From the NCBI GenBank assembly GCA_030426085.1, contig JAUHYW010000082.1, forward strand, positions 1 to 43,654: a stretch of DNA of 43,654 nucleotides. The letters are read 5' to 3'. The first letter of the stretch is position 1; each line of letters begins with the position of its first letter. The notes under the pieces are model-generated. The model was not told where the DNA came from, did no database searches, and saw nothing but the letters and a program-made list of their open reading frames with translations. Below, in pieces: positions 12,622 to 43,639 of this stretch. The DNA comes from a bacterium. Its GTDB lineage: Bacteria; Myxococcota_A; Bradymonadia; UBA7976; UBA1532. A program made the position numbers and the translations under genes.

Positions 12622-14826
12622 TCAGAAGCGGGCCCGGACGCCCAGCATCGGCAGGGTGTAGGCCTGGGCGCCGGGCTCGTTGCCGCCGCGGGTCGGCTCG
12701 GCGGCGTGGGGCACGTTGACCACGTCCAGCCAGGCGCTGCCCTCGAACAGATCGGCGACCCAGCGATACTCGACCCGCAGATCGAGCTGCACGAAGCCAT
12801 CGAGCCGGCGGCGGCGGGCGCCGTCGACGAGGCCAGACGCGTCGGCCTCCTCCAGCCGGCCCGAGGTGTAATGCAGCCGCCCGCCGATCGACCACCGCCC
12901 CGGCAAGCGCAGGCTGAGGGCCGCGTTGAGCAGGTGGTTCTGCTCGAGCGCGCTGCGCACCCAGGGGCCGGCGCGGGTCCCCGGCTCGTCGAGTCGCTGC
13001 TCGACGCGCTGCACCGTATAGCTCAGCCAGCCGTGGATCCAGCCCCCCGGGCGGCGGCGCAGCATCAGCTCGGCGCCCTGGATGCGCCGGTCGACCTCCG
13101 ACAGGTGGGAGGCGATGAGCACCCGGTCGCCGTTCGGAGCCCGGAACTCGATCAAGATGGGGTCGAGGCCGCTGGCGTGGGCCCGATCGCTGCGCCGGGC
13201 GAACGCGCTCCATCGGAACCGCAGCCCGAGCGGCAGGCGCTGCTCGATCCCGAGCTGGCCGTGCACCGTGCGCTCGAGCGCGTCGGCGTCGGTGTACTCG
13301 CCGATGCCCGGGATGGGATACGGATAGCGCTGCGGCGCGTGGGTCACCCCCACCCGGCCGACGACGGCGGTGTCCCGCCCGATGCCGACCCGGGCGTCGA
13401 GGCGGGGGTCGACGCCCCAGTGATCGCCCTCCCCGTAGAGGTCGACCCGGACCCCGGGCGTCAGCCGCACCGGCCCCCAGCGCAGGCGGCCGGCGATCCA
13501 GGCGCCGCCCAGCGGCCGCTCGCGCACCCCCAGCGCCAGCACCGGATCACCGCGGTAGGTGTCGGCGTGGTTCTCGGTGCGGATCCAGGCGCCCTCCAGC
13601 CCGGCCTCGACGCGCAGCCAGTCGGCGATCGGCGCGTCGAGCACCAGCCGGGCCCGGGCCGAGACCTCGTCGATGTCGGCCCCCGAGGCGCTGCGGAAGA
13701 AATAGAGGTCGTCGTCCTCATGGCGGGGCAGGTCGAACTGGTCGAAGCCGAGGTCGAGCCCGACCTCCAGCGTGGCGTCGCCCAGCGGCTCGAACCAGCG
13801 CAAGGCCAGCCGGTGGAACGCCATCTCGGTCTGCGCCGCGGTGTCGGCGTCGCCGAAGGTGTCGGTGGCCCCGAAGAGGCTGATCCGGGCCCGGCGGCGG
13901 CCGTCGCGCCATGAATAGCGCAGGTGGTAGTCGGCGAAGTCGATGACCACCGGCTGGTCGAGCAGGCTCAGGATCCAGCCGGGGTAGCCGACGCGACCGC
14001 TGACGGTGAGCCGGTGCCCCTCGCCGAGCGGCGCCGAGACGAGCGCGCCCGACTGAACCAGATCGAGCAGCACGTCGCCCCGCAGGCCGTCGCCGTCGGG
14101 CTCGGCGGTCTCGACCTCGATCGCGCTGGTGTGGCGGCCGAGGGACAGCGGGGCCCCGCCGGGGTGCAGCGTGATGCGGTCGACGAGGACCGCCGGCACG
14201 ACCCCCTGCCCCACCCCCGAGTGGAACAGGAGCGGGATGGGGGTGCCGTCGACGAAGACGCCCGTCTCGCCGGGCGCCGACCCGCGCACGATGGGGAACG
14301 GCACGACCGAGAGGATGGTGCCGACCGAGGGCAGCGACTGCACCGCGCGCAGCGGATCGCCGAGCGTGCCGGCGGCGCTGCCCAGCTCCTCGGCGGAGAG
14401 GCCCACCGTGGTCAGCGGGCGGCGCCCGTAGACCTCCACGGCGTCCTCGCCCCCGGGGGCCGGGGTCAGCGCCCACGCGCCGAGGTCGAGGCCGCCCGGG
14501 GGCAGCTCGATCGCGCGCGCAGCGGGGGCGTAGGCCGGGTCGTCGATCCGCAGCGTGAGCGGGCCCGGCGGCGCCGTCAGCGTGAAGCGGCCGTCGCCGT
14601 CGGAGAACGTGGAGCCCACCGGTGACCCGTCGGGCGTCAGGGCGCGGATCTCGACGCCCGGCGCCGGGCCCCGGACGCCCCGCCGACGCAGCGTGCCCGA
14701 GATGGGCGCCGCCGCCGGCGCGCGGGCCTCGGCCGTGGCCGGCTCGGCGTAGACGGTGAACGGAATCCCGCAGGCGAGCGCGGCCAGCAGCAGGATCGGG
14801 CCATGTCGGGCCGGGCTCGGCGTCAC
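12622..14826 (-). CDS. TonB-dependent-receptor-like outer-membrane protein
   Basis: A 734-residue outer-membrane transporter-like protein. A signal peptide (1-27, ending VYA) is followed by a carboxypeptidase-regulatory-like domain (about 41-110: ISGTLRRRGVRGPAPGVEI ... SDGDGRFTL). Next come a plug-like domain (about 130-230, with VRGSAPGETGVFVDGTPIP) and a long C-terminal barrel ending in Arg-Ala-Arg-Phe. No convincing TonB box is visible before the plug, so energisation by TonB is uncertain. The substrate is unknown. It starts at GTG 14826, with a G-rich ribosome site three to nine bases upstream. It lies in an operon, with 25-bp gaps to both the membrane-protein gene upstream and xthA downstream. 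Confidence 0.82.
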   Translation of the reverse strand: MTPSPARHGPILLLAALACGIPFTVYAEPATAEARAPAAAPISGTLRRRGVRGPAPGVEIRALTPDGSPVGSTFSDGDGRFTLTAPPGPLTLRIDDPAYAPAARAIELPPGGLDLGAWALTPAPGGEDAVEVYGRRPLTTVGLSAEELGSAAGTLGDPLRAVQSLPSVGTILSVVPFPIVRGSAPGETGVFVDGTPIPLLFHSGVGQGVVPAVLVDRITLHPGGAPLSLGRHTSAIEVETAEPDGDGLRGDVLLDLVQSGALVSAPLGEGHRLTVSGRVGYPGWILSLLDQPVVIDFADYHLRYSWRDGRRRARISLFGATDTFGDADTAAQTEMAFHRLALRWFEPLGDATLEVGLDLGFDQFDLPRHEDDDLYFFRSASGADIDEVSARARLVLDAPIADWLRVEAGLEGAWIRTENHADTYRGDPVLALGVRERPLGGAWIAGRLRWGPVRLTPGVRVDLYGEGDHWGVDPRLDARVGIGRDTAVVGRVGVTHAPQRYPYPIPGIGEYTDADALERTVHGQLGIEQRLPLGLRFRWSAFARRSDRAHASGLDPILIEFRAPNGDRVLIASHLSEVDRRIQGAELMLRRRPGGWIHGWLSYTVQRVEQRLDEPGTRAGPWVRSALEQNHLLNAALSLRLPGRWSIGGRLHYTSGRLEEADASGLVDGARRRRLDGFVQLDLRVEYRWVADLFEGSAWLDVVNVPHAAEPTRGGNEPGAQAYTLPMLGVRARF

Positions 14827-14851
14827 CGACCCCCCTTCGACCGGGCCGCTG

Positions 14852-16015
14852 TCACCCGCCGACCTCGACGACGATCTGGTCGACCACCCGCAGCGAGCGC
14901 TCGCACAAGAAGTCGTAGCAGTAGCGCCGGCCCTCGCCTTCCCGCCGGAAGCGCGTCGGCCGGCCCCACGCCTCCCGGGCCTGCTCGGCGCTCATGCCCA
15001 CCTCGACCCGCCCGCCGGCGACCCGCTCGACCACCGGATCGGGCCAGTCGGGGTATTGCAGCTTCAGCGCGCAGAAACGGTCGCCGTAGGCCGGCTTGCA
15101 GACCGCGTCGAAGGCCGCCTCCAGCTCTTCGATCAGGCGGTCGACCTGGGGCAGATCGGGGTGCTCGGGATCCAGCGCCTCGAGGTTGAGCCGGGCGAAC
15201 TCGGCCCGGTGGCGGGCGGCGAGGAGCTGGGCCAGGCGGGCGTCGCCCGGCGGCGGGCGGGGATCGTTCAGGGCCCGCATGCCCTCGGCGGTGTAGCGGG
15301 CGGCGTAGCGCACGCGCTCCTCGGCGGTGGGCTCGACGAAGGCCCCCGGCGCGTCCCGCCGGGCGTAGTCGAACACCAGCTCGGCCGGCGGGGCCACCGG
15401 GCGGCGGGCGGCCCCGGGATCGGCCATCACGTCGGCCGCCGGGGGCTCGGGATCGGCTGGTCGCCCGGCCGCGGTCGCCTCGCCGGGCTCGACCCGCCGC
15501 GTCGGGGCCGCGGTGTCCCCCGCCCCGGGCGCGCCTCCCCCCGGGCGCCCGCCGGCGGACGCCCCCTGCCCGGCCCCGCTCGGCGACCCGCCGCTCTGCG
15601 TCAGCGTGGCGTCGGGCGGCCGGTCCCGGGTCTCGATGAACTCGCTGTACTGCCGCTTGTCGCCGCCGGTGGGCACCATGCGCACCAGGGCCAGGGTGAG
15701 GCCGATGACGGTCAGCAGCGCCAGCGCCTGCAACACGCGCTTGCGGCGTTGACCGCGCCGTTCGAGGCTCAGTCGATCGAGGGTGATCGGCCCCGGGCGG
15801 CTGTGATCCTCGGTGCCCCGGGCCTGCCGCCCGCGCAGCGCGAAGCCGGCCAGCGCCGGCAGGTTGCGGGCGAACAGCCAGCGGTCGTTGTCGGGGTCGA
15901 AGACGAGGTCGTTGGCCCGGATGCGGCCCTGCGCCGCCGCCTCGACCAGCCCGTCGAGGCCGCCGGCGTAGATCTCGCGACCGCTGCGGGTCACCTGGAA
16001 TCGTTCCTCGGCCAT
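14852..16015 (-). CDS. Membrane protein with GYF-like N-terminal and SmpA/OmlA-like C-terminal domain
   Basis: A 387-residue protein with a cytoplasmic N-terminal module (about 5-62: FQVTRSGREIYAGGLDGLVE ... GRIRANDLVFDP ... W). This resembles the GYF_2-like/DUF4339 type seen in many myxobacterial membrane proteins. One transmembrane helix (about 94-112) precedes a long Gly/Pro/Ala linker and a periplasmic part. The last 55 residues (VEVGMSAEQAREAWGRPTRF ... YDFLCERSLRVVDQIVVEV) look like the SmpA/OmlA fold used in envelope assembly lipoproteins. The start is the ATG at about 16015, 76 bp from the divergent DUF1285-like gene. It is first in the operon with the receptor-like protein and xthA. 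The role is unknown; a link to envelope biogenesis is inferred only from the C-terminal domain. Confidence 0.7.
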   Translation of the reverse strand: MAEERFQVTRSGREIYAGGLDGLVEAAAQGRIRANDLVFDPDNDRWLFARNLPALAGFALRGRQARGTEDHSRPGPITLDRLSLERRGQRRKRVLQALALLTVIGLTLALVRMVPTGGDKRQYSEFIETRDRPPDATLTQSGGSPSGAGQGASAGGRPGGGAPGAGDTAAPTRRVEPGEATAAGRPADPEPPAADVMADPGAARRPVAPPAELVFDYARRDAPGAFVEPTAEERVRYAARYTAEGMRALNDPRPPPGDARLAQLLAARHRAEFARLNLEALDPEHPDLPQVDRLIEELEAAFDAVCKPAYGDRFCALKLQYPDWPDPVVERVAGGRVEVGMSAEQAREAWGRPTRFRREGEGRRYCYDFLCERSLRVVDQIVVEVGG

Positions 16016-16091
16016 GCCGCCATCATGCCGCAGTCGCCGCCCGGGCGCGAACGGCGCGGCGATGGCCGGCGCACCCGCCCGAGGAGGCCCC

Positions 16092-16611
16092 ATGAGCCCG
16101 CCCGACGACCCCGCCCCGACCGAGACCGACGACGCCGCCGCCGAGGCGTGGCTGGCGAAGCTCGAGACCCTGCGCCGCAGCGTCGATCTGCGGCTCGACG
16201 GCGAGGGGCGGTGGTTCCACGACGGCGAGCCGTTCGCGCACCAGGGGCTCATCGCCGCCTTCGACCGGGGCATCGACGCGCACCCCGACAGCGGCGAGCC
16301 CATCCTGCGGCTCGGCTCGCGGTGGTGCTACATCCGGGCCGACGACACCCCGTTCGTGGCCCGGCGCATCACCGCCGACGGCGACCGGCTGACGCTGCGG
16401 CTGAACACCGGGGCCTCGGTGACGGTGCCCGCCCGCGGGTTCGAGGCCCGGGGCGCGCGGCTGTACGTGAGGCTGGACGACGGGCGCCGGGTGCGGCTGA
16501 GCCGGGCGGCGCAGGCGAAGGCGGGTGGGTGGCTCGAGGAGGGCGACGGCGGCATGCGCGTCGCGGCGGCCGGGCGGCGCTACCCCGTCCGGCCGGTCGA
16601 CGGGCCCGAAC

Positions 16612-39132: not shown

Positions 39133-40638
39133 ATGAGCGCCGATCCCGCCGACGATCTCTTCTTCGACGACCGCGAGACCCTCGACCCCGACGACATCGC
39201 CGGCGACGCCGCCCTGCCCGACGCCCGCCAGCGGGGCTTCGTCGGCCGGCCGGCGCGCTCGATCTTCACCGACGGGCAGGAGAGCCGCTTCGAAGCCATC
39301 ATCGACGGTGACTTCTTCGAGCTCCTCGAAGGCTCGAGCCCGCTCATCGCGACCACCCCCGACTTCGACGCCGCGCTCGAGGCCGCCCTCGACGCCGGCG
39401 GCGCGGTCGTCATCGGCGACCCGCTCGGCGACGACCCCTTCTCGGTGCGCCACTGGCCCGAGGGCGCCGACATCACCCCGCCCTGCGCGCTCGACCTCCA
39501 GGCCACGCCCGACATCGGCGCCATCGTGATGGGCGGGGCGCCGCTCTTCCCGGCCCACCCGGCGAAGCGCACCGTGCGCTGGGTCACCGTGCCCGGCCTG
39601 CGCGAGTTCTGGGGGCTGCCCGACGACCTGAAGCGCTGGGTCCGGGCCCCGATGGAGCAGGCGTGGAGCCGGGGCGCCGACCTGCCCGAGCTGAAGCACG
39701 CCATCGAAGACATCCCCTTCGCGACCCTGCGCCTGCTCATCGCCAGCCACCCCCACGTCGTGCCGGTCAAGACCGTCGTGCGCAAGGGCGTCGACCGGGG
39801 CGCGGTGGTCTACGGCGTCACCCGGCCCTACCTCACCGCCGACCTCGACGAGCCGGCCATCTACCTGCCCGTCATCAGCATGAAAGAGGGCAACGTCGAC
39901 GCGATCAACGCCTGGGATCTGGACGCCGGCATCAGCCTGGGCCCGGTGCAGTTCAACGTCATCGGGGGCCACCTCTTCTCGGCCCTGCTCACCGCCTGGC
40001 GCGAAGATCCGGCGCTCTTCCGGGCCTGCTTCGGCAGCCTCGGCTGGACCGCCACCGAGGTCGACGGCCGCCCGGCGCTCGTCGTCGAGAAGGACGGCGC
40101 CCAGGTGACGCTGATGTCGAAGCGGGGCGAGGATCGGGACGGCATCCGGCGCAACGCGGGCTACTTCCAGGCCGGCGAGGCGGGCAAGTGGGGGCTCTCG
40201 CAGATCGACGGCGACTTCCGCCGCGACCTCGCCGCCCGCTTCCGCAATCTGGCGCTGTGGCCCCACGCCCAGCGGTGGCTCATGGGCGAGTCGGGGGCCT
40301 ACCTCGACCGCGGCCGGGGCCGCATGGACCGGGCGAAGGTGCCCCCCGTCGACCCCGCGGCCCTCGACGCCGACGGCTACACGCTGCGGGCGCTGCTCAT
40401 GTCGGGCTACGTGCGCTACGGGGCCTCGCTGCGCTACACGCTCGAGCAGCTCGACGGCCTCGGCCGGGACGACGCCGGCGCGCTGCTCGAGCGGCTGCCG
40501 AAAGCGCTGGCCGGGGTGGCCGCGAAGAGCGACGCCTGGGCCACGCGGATCGATCGGCTCCAGGATCGCTACTACGGCAAGGGCAGCAAGCCGGGGCAGG
40601 TCGACCACGCCAAGACGGTGCTGTCGATGCGGGGGTGA
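39133..40638 (+). CDS. Hypothetical protein with a possible lysozyme-like core
   Basis: A 501-residue protein with no signal peptide. The N-terminal 60 residues are acidic and disordered-looking. The mid-region contains ISMKEGNVDAINAWD (Glu252), then AGISLGPVQFN (266-275). A Glu followed by a Gly-Ile-Ser-x-Gly-x-x-Gln string is the arrangement seen in lysozyme/transglycosylase-type folds (catalytic Glu, then GxxQ). This is suggestive but not diagnostic. The C-terminal part (about 410-500) is helical and basic. GGAGG precedes ATG 39133. It follows the TerB-SPFH gene by 91 bp in the same direction, so they may form an operon. The 42-bp repeat array begins 80 bp after its stop. Confidence 0.7.
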   Translation: MSADPADDLFFDDRETLDPDDIAGDAALPDARQRGFVGRPARSIFTDGQESRFEAIIDGDFFELLEGSSPLIATTPDFDAALEAALDAGGAVVIGDPLGDDPFSVRHWPEGADITPPCALDLQATPDIGAIVMGGAPLFPAHPAKRTVRWVTVPGLREFWGLPDDLKRWVRAPMEQAWSRGADLPELKHAIEDIPFATLRLLIASHPHVVPVKTVVRKGVDRGAVVYGVTRPYLTADLDEPAIYLPVISMKEGNVDAINAWDLDAGISLGPVQFNVIGGHLFSALLTAWREDPALFRACFGSLGWTATEVDGRPALVVEKDGAQVTLMSKRGEDRDGIRRNAGYFQAGEAGKWGLSQIDGDFRRDLAARFRNLALWPHAQRWLMGESGAYLDRGRGRMDRAKVPPVDPAALDADGYTLRALLMSGYVRYGASLRYTLEQLDGLGRDDAGALLERLPKALAGVAAKSDAWATRIDRLQDRYYGKGSKPGQVDHAKTVLSMRG

Positions 40639-40718
40639 GCGGGCCGGGCCGGGGCGCCTCCGAGGCGGCCCGAACGTCCCCCTCTCTACTCGAAGGCGCC
40701 GGCGGGGCGGCGGCGATC

Positions 40719-42140
40719 GAGGCGCCCCGATCGACCTGAGCCGCGGGGGCTCTCGACGCCGAGGCCACCCCGGTCGATGGGCCCGCGTGGGCGCCGGGCA
40801 TCACATCCCCCCGGTCGAGTCGGGCTCCACCGGCAGCCGACACCGAGGCCGCCCCGGGTGACATGGACCCATGGGGCCCCGAGCGTATGACCGCCCCGGT
40901 CGATGTGACCCCGAAGGCCCCCGCGCCCATGCCCGCCCCGAATGACACGGACCCATGGGCCCCGGAGTTCATGCCCGCCCCGGTCGATGGGACTCCGGGG
41001 GTACCCGCTCACATGCCCGCCCCAGATGGCACGGACCCATGGGCCCCCGCGCCCATGCCCGCCCCGAATGGCATGGTTCCATAGGCCCCCGGGCCCATGC
41101 GCGCCCCGGTTGATGGGACTCCGAGGGCGCCCGCGCCCATGCCCGCCCTGGTCGATGGGGCCCCGAGGGCGCCCGAGCGCATGCCCGCCCCGGTCGTTGT
41201 GACCCCAAAGGCGCCCGAGCGCATGCCCGCCCCGAATGACACGGGCCCATAGGCCCAGGCGACTATGTCCGCCCCGGTCGACGGGGCCCCGGGGGTGCCC
41301 GAGCGCACGCCCGCCCCGATCGGCGCCGGCTCGGCGGTGGCCGACGCCGAGGGCGCCTCCGTCGTCACGCCCTCATGGGCTCCGACGAGCATGGCCGCCC
41401 CGATCGACTCGAGCCCGTCGGCAGGCGCGCGCATGCCCGACCCGATTGGACCGCGCCTCATCGGCTCCCGAAGGCGAGGCCGCCCCGATCATCGGACCCT
41501 CATGGGCTGTGGCGGTGATGCCCACGCCGATCGAGCTGCGCCCCATCGGCTCCCGAAGGCGAGGCCGCCCCGATCATCGGGCCCTCATGGGCTCCGGCGG
41601 TGATGCCCGCTCCGATCAACGCGTGCCCCCGAGGCTGCGTGAATCGAAGCCGCCCCGGTCGGGCGCGCGCCTCGGGCTTTCATGATCGAAGCCGCCCCGA
41701 TCGACATGCGCCCTGCCGGTCCCAGAAGCCGAAGCCGCCCCGATCGCGCGCGCCCCGCCGGCCCCCGAAGTCGAAGCCGCCCCGGTCGGTCAGCGCCCCA
41801 CAGGACTCCAGAGTCGAAGCCGCCCGAGCAGAACGCACCGCATGGGTCCACGCGACCGGGGCCAGCTCGATGGACACCGACCTCGTGAGCCCTCGAAGGC
41901 GAAGCCGGCCGCCCGTCGCGGGCCTCATGGGCCGCGGAGACCGAGGACGTCCGATCGGCGCGCGCCTCGTAGGCCGTCCCCATCGAAGACACCCGGTCGG
42001 CGTGCACCTCGCAGGCCCCACGGACCGAAGCCGCCTGATCGTTCCGAGCCTCACGGCCCATCTCGACCGCCGCCACCCCATCCGCCGGCACCCCAGGGGC
42101 GCGCCCGACCGAGGCGGCGCCGGTCGACATCGCCCCCGGG
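40719..42140. repeat. About 34-unit degenerate tandem array with a 42-bp period
   Basis: A core like CCGCCCCGGTCGATG recurs about 34 times. Marking the base after the C-run gives 40856, 40898, 40940, 40982, 41024, 41066, 41108, 41150, 41192, 41234, 41276 and 41318: twelve units at exactly 42 bp. Later units step by 42 and 43 alternately (e.g. 41487, 41529, 41572, 41614, 41657, 41699, 41742, 41784), an 85-bp dimer. Bodies fall into a GATGGGACTCCGAGGGCG type and a GACACGGACCCATGGGCC type that partly alternate. No reading frame spans the array and third-position GC is poor in units checked, so it looks non-coding. It is not CRISPR: cores are too short and no cas genes are present. Confidence 0.85.
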
Positions 42141-42377
42141 GCCCTTCACCCCGCGCAGCCCACCCCCGACCGGACCGCCGCGGTCCACGGCGGCGTTCGA
42201 GCGCGGGCCCGGCGTACCCTCGGGGTATGTGCGGCGGATCGACTGTCGGTCAGCTACGCCCCGGCGCCGCGCGCGGGCGCTCGTGCGTGCGCTTTGATGG
42301 CCCCGACCGCGCCGCAAGCCGCCGACCCGTGGGTTTCGCTCGCCCGCGGTGACGACGCCCGAGCCCGGGCCCGGGGC

Positions 42378-43183
42378 TCACTCGCCGGGCGCGCCCTTCG
42401 GGGGCCCGGCGTAGCGGATGGGATCCCGGAAGCCATAGGTCGCGCGCAGGTGGTCGAACGCGTCGACGGCCTCGTAGGACCCGACGACGACCGGCTGGTG
42501 GGACGCCGGCTCGAGGTCGATGACCGCGCCGTCGGCGTCGAGGACGACCGGGTGCAGCAGGTTCGCGAACGGCACCGGCGGATAGCTCAACTGGATCGGC
42601 CGGGCGTTACAGCAGCCGGACATTGAAGATGACCAGGGATCGCGCAGACCGATTCTTCGAGTGCAAGGCGCGAGACGCAGACGCTGCTGGGGGCAACGGC
42701 AAGTCGAGCAACGCCGCAATCGAAGAATCGGGCCAGCGAGCACGGTCAGATTCATTGTCTGGCTGCTGTATCGGCGAAGTCGCGGGCCTCGGCCTGGGGG
42801 ACCTTCTCCGGCGCGGCGAAGAGGATGCGGTTGAGCACGTACAGGTCGGCCGAGAAGACGTCCGCCGGGTGTATCCCCTCGCCGTGCGCCCAATCCATTA
42901 TGAGCTGGTAGGCCGTGCGCACGCTCTCCGGCTCGAGCGCGCGCAGCGCGCGGGCGGTCTCGACGTAGGCCCGGACGTCGGCGTCGGTGAAGTGTCGGCT
43001 GACGTCGAACGTGCGGGTCCCATACCACGACGGCAGCTCGGCGATGAGCTCCAGCGCGCGCTCGACTTCGCCCTCGGCTTCGGTCTCGGAGAGCATCCGC
43101 GACCGGGGACCACCGCACGCGAGGAGCAGCAGCGCCATCAGCGCGTATGGCAGTGAGCGTCGGCGCGCGAGATCAGCGATCAT
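42378..43183 (-). pseudogene. Lipoprotein gene split by a 159-bp mobile element
   Basis: The 5' part (43183 to about 42771) codes for a lipoprotein (signal ending LLLLAC, Cys23) with an all-helical mature part (SRHFTDADVRAYVETARALR ... IHPADVFSADLYVLNRILFAAP). It then runs into the inserted element and stops after six foreign residues (DTAARQ). The 3' part (about 42607-42378) continues in another frame with NARPIQLSYPPVPFANLLHP and ends GAPGE. Deleting 42610-42770 (161 bp: the element plus one TA) joins DFAD to NARPIQ in frame and gives a 214-residue protein, so this was one gene. Its start overlaps the upstream gene's stop by 11 bp. The original function is not recognised. A separate 81-residue gene starting at 42623 is rejected because that Met lies inside the element. 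Confidence 0.82.
42610..42768. mobile_element. MITE-like element with inverted termini and TA target duplication
   Basis: The ends are inverted repeats: reading inward from each side, including the flanking TA, 23 of 27 positions match (42608-42634 and 42744-42770). Both begin TACAGCAGCC and end TGACC. TA occurs on both sides (42608-42609 and 42769-42770), the target duplication expected of IS630/Tc1-type transposition. The 159-bp interior has no coding capacity. It holds a further perfect hairpin, CCGATTCTTCGA / TCGAAGAATCGG (42649-42660, 42720-42731), around the signature GCAAGGCGCGAG ... GAGCAACGCCGCA. The transposase needed to move it would be supplied in trans. The window's own transposase does not look like an IS630 enzyme. 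Confidence 0.85.
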
Positions 43184-43541: not shown

Positions 43542-43639
43542 GCCGGACGAGCGCCGCGAGCGGCAAGGCGCGAGCCCGAAGTCGTGGCAGAGTCACGTCG
43601 AGCGGCGAGCAACGCCGCAGATCGCGGCGCTCGTCCGGC
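43542..43639. repeat. Palindromic element related to the interior of the MITE-like element
   Basis: Perfect 18-bp arms (43542-43559 and 43622-43639, beginning GCCGGACGAGCGCC) enclose 62 nt. The interior carries GCAAGGCGCGAG and GAGCAACGCCGCA in the same order and orientation as the element at 42610-42768, but the arms are unrelated in sequence. Shared interior with different self-complementary arms suggests that the fold is conserved rather than the arm sequence. It lies upstream of the 107-residue protein gene. The window ends 15 bases later, so outer termini may be cut off. Confidence 0.8.

Follow-up and report, generated by a model that had tools for sequence, protein, structure and literature searches.

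Non-coding satellites with long units are rarely seen in prokaryotes. Among 261 prokaryotes surveyed, families of this kind were confined to Leptospira interrogans, with units of 46 and 37 bp, and to Methanocella conradii, with units of 37 bp (PMC6749651). The array described here is located in a window of 43,654 nucleotides (the whole stretch of DNA in which it was noticed) of genome G000, and it is one of many islands in that genome. Like the Leptospira and Methanocella satellites, these islands are dispersed non-coding intergenic arrays with units longer than 30 bp and a length that is not a multiple of 3. Those families are sequence-defined (PMC6749651), whereas the arrays in G000 are mostly unrelated to each other, share one monomer length, occur also as dimers and trimers, and number an estimated 12-15 per Mb. 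The LTRR of Anabaena and Nostoc are likewise bacterial intergenic tandem repeats, but they are sequence-defined as well, and we found nothing there on a length common to unrelated arrays (PMC2408588).

Two further systems offer partial parallels. Borg tandem repeats, about half of which are intergenic, also form many independent, fast-evolving arrays per genome, but their units are perfect and A-rich (PMC9879509), whereas the islands here are GC-rich, often strongly diverged and close to 42.5 bp in unit length. Eukaryotic satellites share with the islands their higher-order repeats, homogeneous blocks, species-specific turnover and narrow length class, which in eukaryotes is nucleosomal (PMC8122249); unlike them, the islands are short, intergenic and bacterial, without a centromere or known chromatin partner. 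In a literature search of mainly freely available papers, we found no report of a common monomer length in unrelated bacterial satellites.

The array and its flanks

The region 40,639-42,377 was delimited by a home-made gene finder as a single intergenic region between two convergent genes, and the island therefore lies between two gene 3' ends. The features are the following.

39133-40638, plus strand: upstream flanking gene (501 aa), 3' end toward the array, no Pfam match
40705-42145, no strand assigned: non-coding satellite island of about 34-35 units of 42-43 bp, consensus GCCGCCCCGATCGACGGGGCCCCATGGGCCCCCGAGGCCGAT
40848-41436, plus strand: first sub-array, 14 consecutive exact 42-bp steps with 84/126-bp higher-order repeats (TRF, core positions)
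41436-41861, plus strand: second sub-array, strict alternation of 43 and 42 bp, giving 85-bp dimers
41861-42145, plus strand: end of the array and its most decayed part, in which lag 42 persists (autocorrelation, profile alignment)
42378-42623, minus strand: terminal fragment of a small lipoprotein-like gene that converges with the 501-aa gene

The original prediction of about 34 units at 42-bp spacing is confirmed by three methods. Autocorrelation of 40,701-42,160 peaks at lags 42, 84 and 126 (identities of 0.56, 0.51 and 0.50, with a mean of 0.32), TRF reports arrays of 42/84/126 bp first and of 85 bp thereafter, and a cyclic-profile alignment of 40,705-42,145 yields 35-36 rows with a mean spacing of 42.18 (26 steps of 42, seven of 43 and one of 41). 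The periodicity z of the array region, 17.8, is far beyond chance (maximum of 6.4 in dinucleotide shuffles of 376 intergenic regions). Identity to the consensus is 70%, while it reaches up to 95% in other islands. The core CGCCC(C/T)(G/A) is found at 12 positions spaced by exactly 42 (40,850-41,312). When mismatches in the core are allowed, all steps from 40,848 to 41,436 fit exact 42, a run that includes one unit inferred across an 84 step, and the exact run that had been noticed earlier thus extends over 14 consecutive steps. With these units, the array falls within the size range of prokaryotic satellites, defined as at least four tandem units of 10-200 nt each (PMC6749651). A CRISPR array was rejected, since the entire unit repeats and there are no unique spacers of constant size.

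The array is non-coding, as originally proposed. The median codon score of called genes is 0.76 bits/codon, whereas the best open reading frame of the array reaches 0.01. The GC content by codon position is 0.73/0.49/0.97 in the neighbouring gene, a signature that is missing from the array reading frames (0.70/0.85/0.75 and 0.72/0.76/0.75). The stops in every frame on which the proposal had leaned are present for the array as a whole but not locally, as reading frames of up to 250 aa overlap it, which is expected at about 77% GC. The flanking genes had been described as an SPFH/lysozyme-like pair; the SPFH assignment is supported, while the 501-aa gene taken as lysozyme-like belongs to no Pfam family.

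Two short inverted-repeat elements are present downstream. A MITE-like element of ~165 bp (42605-42773) with 30-bp imperfect inverted ends appears to split the lipoprotein-like gene (42,752-43,183 and 42,378-42,623, minus strand), and further full or partial copies with 82-95% identity are found in the genome. The second element (43542-43639) has 23-bp arms that are 91% complementary and has the words AAGGCGCGAG and GAGCAACGCCGC in common with the first.

One monomer length in mostly unrelated arrays

The original prediction suggested a scan of this and sister genomes for other arrays, and such arrays were found both within and beyond the unit family of the window. The family is present at no fewer than five other loci of the genome: C40, C83, C71 and C156, which were found by BLAST and a sequence-only dimer model (R1), and L153, which was found with the family profile. 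Together with the window, these related arrays at several genome sites make up a dispersed non-coding satellite family. The C40 array lies at 82.6-83.7 kb, and the units at C156 are 43 bp long. In a search of 57 genomes of the class, the family profile matched its own genome and one short related stretch in the sister species G001, and gave no match in the 55 others; BLAST of the array against phages and plasmids was equally without match. The C40 array (L016 821-8342) is situated between a KptA/Tpt1 RNA 2'-phosphotransferase gene and a BREX-like operon (BrxE, BrxC). At three places, namely C83 (L039 1-1030), G001 C36 66186-67703 and G001 C20 20-801, satellite blocks of opposite orientation stand side by side.

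For the wider scan, we sampled about 1.6 Mb of G000 (about 16%) and analyzed 376 intergenic regions, delimited by the home-made gene finder, by autocorrelation over 126 lags, with TRF in parallel; neither method has a built-in preference for 42. Forty of the 376 regions are significantly periodic, and 28 of these 40 fall on a strict ladder of 41-44, 84-87 and 126-129 bp (binomial p about 4e-20, uniform over 126 lags). With one region per sequence family, 20 out of 32 do so (p about 3e-13). As the window was already known when the ladder lags were set, these p-values serve as guides rather than strict tests. The best lags are 41 (two regions), 42 (five), 43 (nine), 44 (two), 84-87 (nine) and 129 (one), the others being scattered or borderline (89, 131). 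Monomers thus measure 41-44 bp, with array means mostly at 42-43, dimers 84-87 bp and trimers 126-129 bp. TRF likewise detected non-coding arrays with differing units at 41, 42, 43 and 44 bp, as well as at 85-87 and 129 bp; examples are a 43-mer repeated 13 times (L148), a different 43-mer repeated 16 times (L124), a 44-mer repeated seven times (L141) and a 42-mer repeated seven times (L150). The pooled intergenic autocorrelation of G000 is led by lags 42, 84, 43, 129, 168, 126 and 210. At least one of the periodic regions, the 87-bp array at L100, may encode protein, its composition being codon-like. On the L141 contig, positions 13701-16241 encode a protein kinase fused to an FGE-sulfatase domain, which has more than 120 matches per genome in each of four relatives.

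With a wider set of ladder lags, 30 of the 376 sampled regions are included, and these hold about 21% of the sampled intergenic bases; the genome is a draft of 178 contigs, and contig starts are over-represented in the sample, which enriches arrays. A sample of 400 kb taken only from contig interiors contains five clear ladder arrays and one at 89 bp. Extrapolation from this interior sample (12-15 arrays per Mb) gives an estimate of roughly 120-150 islands per 10-Mb chromosome. Arrays are probably under-counted in this lineage, as they are located at contig ends of the draft assembly. Related 87-bp arrays occur at four contig starts (L108 1-406, L111 1-656, L117 1-544 and L081 1-147) and probably belong to a single dispersed satellite family at which the assembly breaks. 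Perfect 16-bp repeats fill the whole of the small contigs L075, L077 and L082 as well as 1.9 kb of L020 (401-2301); they may represent either a further satellite or an artefact of assembly.

The islands are about 0.1-1.7 kb long and discrete, as other (non-array) intergenic DNA carries no 42 signal. They are mostly unrelated in sequence, yet most have one monomer length of ~42 bp. A comparison of 41 consensus units revealed relatedness only in small groups, such as the four 87-bp arrays at contig starts, and on L124, L125, L150, L090, L148, L141, L113 and most G001 arrays the family profile of the window does no better than column-permuted controls. Beyond composition, no k-mer or motif is common to the arrays. 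A common fold is weak at best: the median folding z of the arrays is -1.2, slightly below the -0.4 of control intergenic DNA (p = 0.03). Dyad symmetry shows a mild excess in 38 monomers (mean z 0.67 vs -0.03 in the control), which the column-permutation test overstates because it ignores dinucleotides.

The same length is found outside G000. In the sister species G001, six out of nine periodic regions are on the ladder, including an 85-mer repeated 12 times, and the leading lags of its pooled intergenic autocorrelation (170, 85, 42 and 213) are multiples of about 42.5. G006, from a second genus of the family, has two out of five periodic regions on the ladder, which is not significant alone. 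A control set of 80 diverse bacteria (1.42 Mb) contained no arrays of 41, 43, 44 or 85-86 bp and one 42-bp array (coding or non-coding). The earlier observation that spacing is kept beyond sequence holds, and applies also to unrelated arrays in this genome and the sister species.

Probable turnover of the islands

Comparison with G001 suggests that the islands turn over fast. The G001 ortholog of the 501-aa flanking gene (72% identity) is directly followed by the next gene and the array is absent. The same was found for the L141 array, so that both orthologous sites compared, in one sister species, have directly adjacent genes without an island; for two further array flanks the orthologs are too distant for the sites to be compared. 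Conversely, the 85-bp family of G001 recurs at several sites of that genome and is absent from G000. When the homogeneous sub-array is removed from the regions that contain one, the remainder is still periodic at 42/43 (aggregate z 12.9) while ordinary intergenic regions are silent, which points to young blocks within older, decayed islands. Sub-arrays inside older arrays of the same period, together with the absence at two out of two orthologous sites, argue for satellite islands with fast turnover.

In the window array there are 0.07 indels per substitution, and other arrays give 0-0.2. Such values are unremarkable for bacterial mutation, and even spacing inside a single array therefore needs no selection. 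Conservation of spacing by selection at this locus is thus not borne out, and what has to be explained is the coincidence of length across arrays.

We propose, at a probability of about 0.74, that the window array is a satellite-DNA island with in-register turnover, in which the length is inherited while the sequence is replaced, the ~42.5 bp deriving from an ancestral satellite or a physical ruler. One to three monomers at a time would be re-amplified in register, again and again, presumably through slippage or unequal exchange, and the islands would decay by point mutation between amplification bouts. As whole monomers are re-amplified, the monomer length would survive while the sequence is lost. 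The initial ~42.5 bp could come from shared descent from one ancestral satellite, or from a physical ruler: a nucleoid protein might hold or wrap a segment of that size, or a duplication machine might have a fixed reach. Re-amplification accounts for the survival of the length, not for why it is 42.5. An inherited length would require a single ancestral satellite, the descendants of which would no longer be recognisable as such. Under a ruler, a DNA-organising protein or a duplication machine would measure steps of ~42.5 bp and any sequence caught would become a satellite, a reading we regard as rather unlikely.

Explanations for the length and the spacing

Among the specific alternatives, a mutational ruler is possible, if unlikely. 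An enzyme would duplicate DNA in steps of ~42 nt, and satellites would be born independently with the same length and without function. This would fit one length in unrelated sequences that have neither fold nor motif in common, the lack of such arrays in the control bacteria, and the placement of the islands where DNA is tolerated (many in convergent gaps, few in divergent ones). The young arrays inside older arrays of the same period, however, suggest that monomers already present are amplified again, rather than new satellites being born, and we know of no enzyme with this activity.

Somewhat more doubtful is a selected, chromatin-like ruler, in which a nucleoid protein would hold or wrap ~42.5-bp steps and tandem arrays of this length and of any sequence would be favoured for positioning it. 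It is compatible with the satellite reading and concerns only what sets the length. The occurrence of one length in unrelated sequences of two species, with traces in a second genus, is consistent with it, as are the mixed 42/43 steps centred near 42.5 and the mild dyad-symmetry excess of the monomers. In eukaryotes, most satellite units either have nucleosomal length or measure 5-10 bp (PMC8122249). Histones occur in bacteria too, Myxococcota included; some have been described as bending or wrapping DNA, and a Leptospira histone wraps ~60 bp (PMC12701072, PMC11390915). In the prokaryote survey, Leptospira interrogans is also the sole bacterium with dispersed long-unit non-coding satellites (PMC6749651). 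On the other hand, orthologous sites lack islands, the arrays have no motif in common, spacing shows no constraint in the indel/substitution ratio, and the period is missing from most intergenic DNA. A screen for histone-like motifs, which covered only the sampled 16% of the genome and is thus weak evidence, yielded no candidate.

The original prediction favoured a helically phased DNA scaffold or partition site with all cores on one face of the helix, which we now consider very unlikely. The length of 42 bp does equal four turns at 10.5 bp/turn, and the first half of the array keeps 14 exact 42-bp steps, but in arrays of exactly 41, 43 and 44 bp the units would shift round the helix from one to the next, and no preference or grouping of arrays is seen at other whole-turn periods, those of three, five or six turns (31-32, 52-53 and 63 bp). 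Autocorrelation of the window array reveals no 21-bp signal within the unit. Phased protein binding would entail a conserved motif and whole-turn spacing in all members, neither of which is seen here. As for a conserved binding or partition site, the arrays have no k-mer in common, the array is missing from the orthologous site of the sister, and there are many copies rather than one locus. A DNA-binding scaffold is possible in another form, as one that would read length rather than sequence.

A structured non-coding RNA or a stack of terminators, the first of which had also been proposed, is highly improbable. Some units of the window array could form GC hairpins (GGGGCCC-CAT-GGGCCCC), and many islands lie directly 3' of stop codons. 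Yet the arrays fold only slightly better than control intergenic DNA, the window array has a folding z of about -0.1/-1.4, and it has no match in Rfam. That the array is the remnant of a gene for a 14-residue repeat protein is extremely unlikely: one plus-strand frame of the first half does resemble repeats of MPAPVDGTPRAPER, TAG standing in for the TGG of sister units, but the codon signal and the codon-position GC pattern are missing from all array reading frames, the 43-bp units of related arrays break the frame and the second half advances in steps of 85 bp.

The satellite-island reading, in which the length outlives the sequence, carries a caution for similar loci, since spacing conserved beyond sequence at one locus need not imply function there. 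The combination of restricted unit length and sequence turnover is a theme of eukaryotic satellites, and its cause is under debate. With islands estimated at a hundred or more, this bacterium offers a small, tractable system in which to ask whether such a length is passed on by descent, maintained by selection or dictated by an enzyme or a chromatin protein. If the ruler were true, these islands would be bacterial "chromatin-length" satellites, analogous to the nucleosome-length satellites of eukaryotes.
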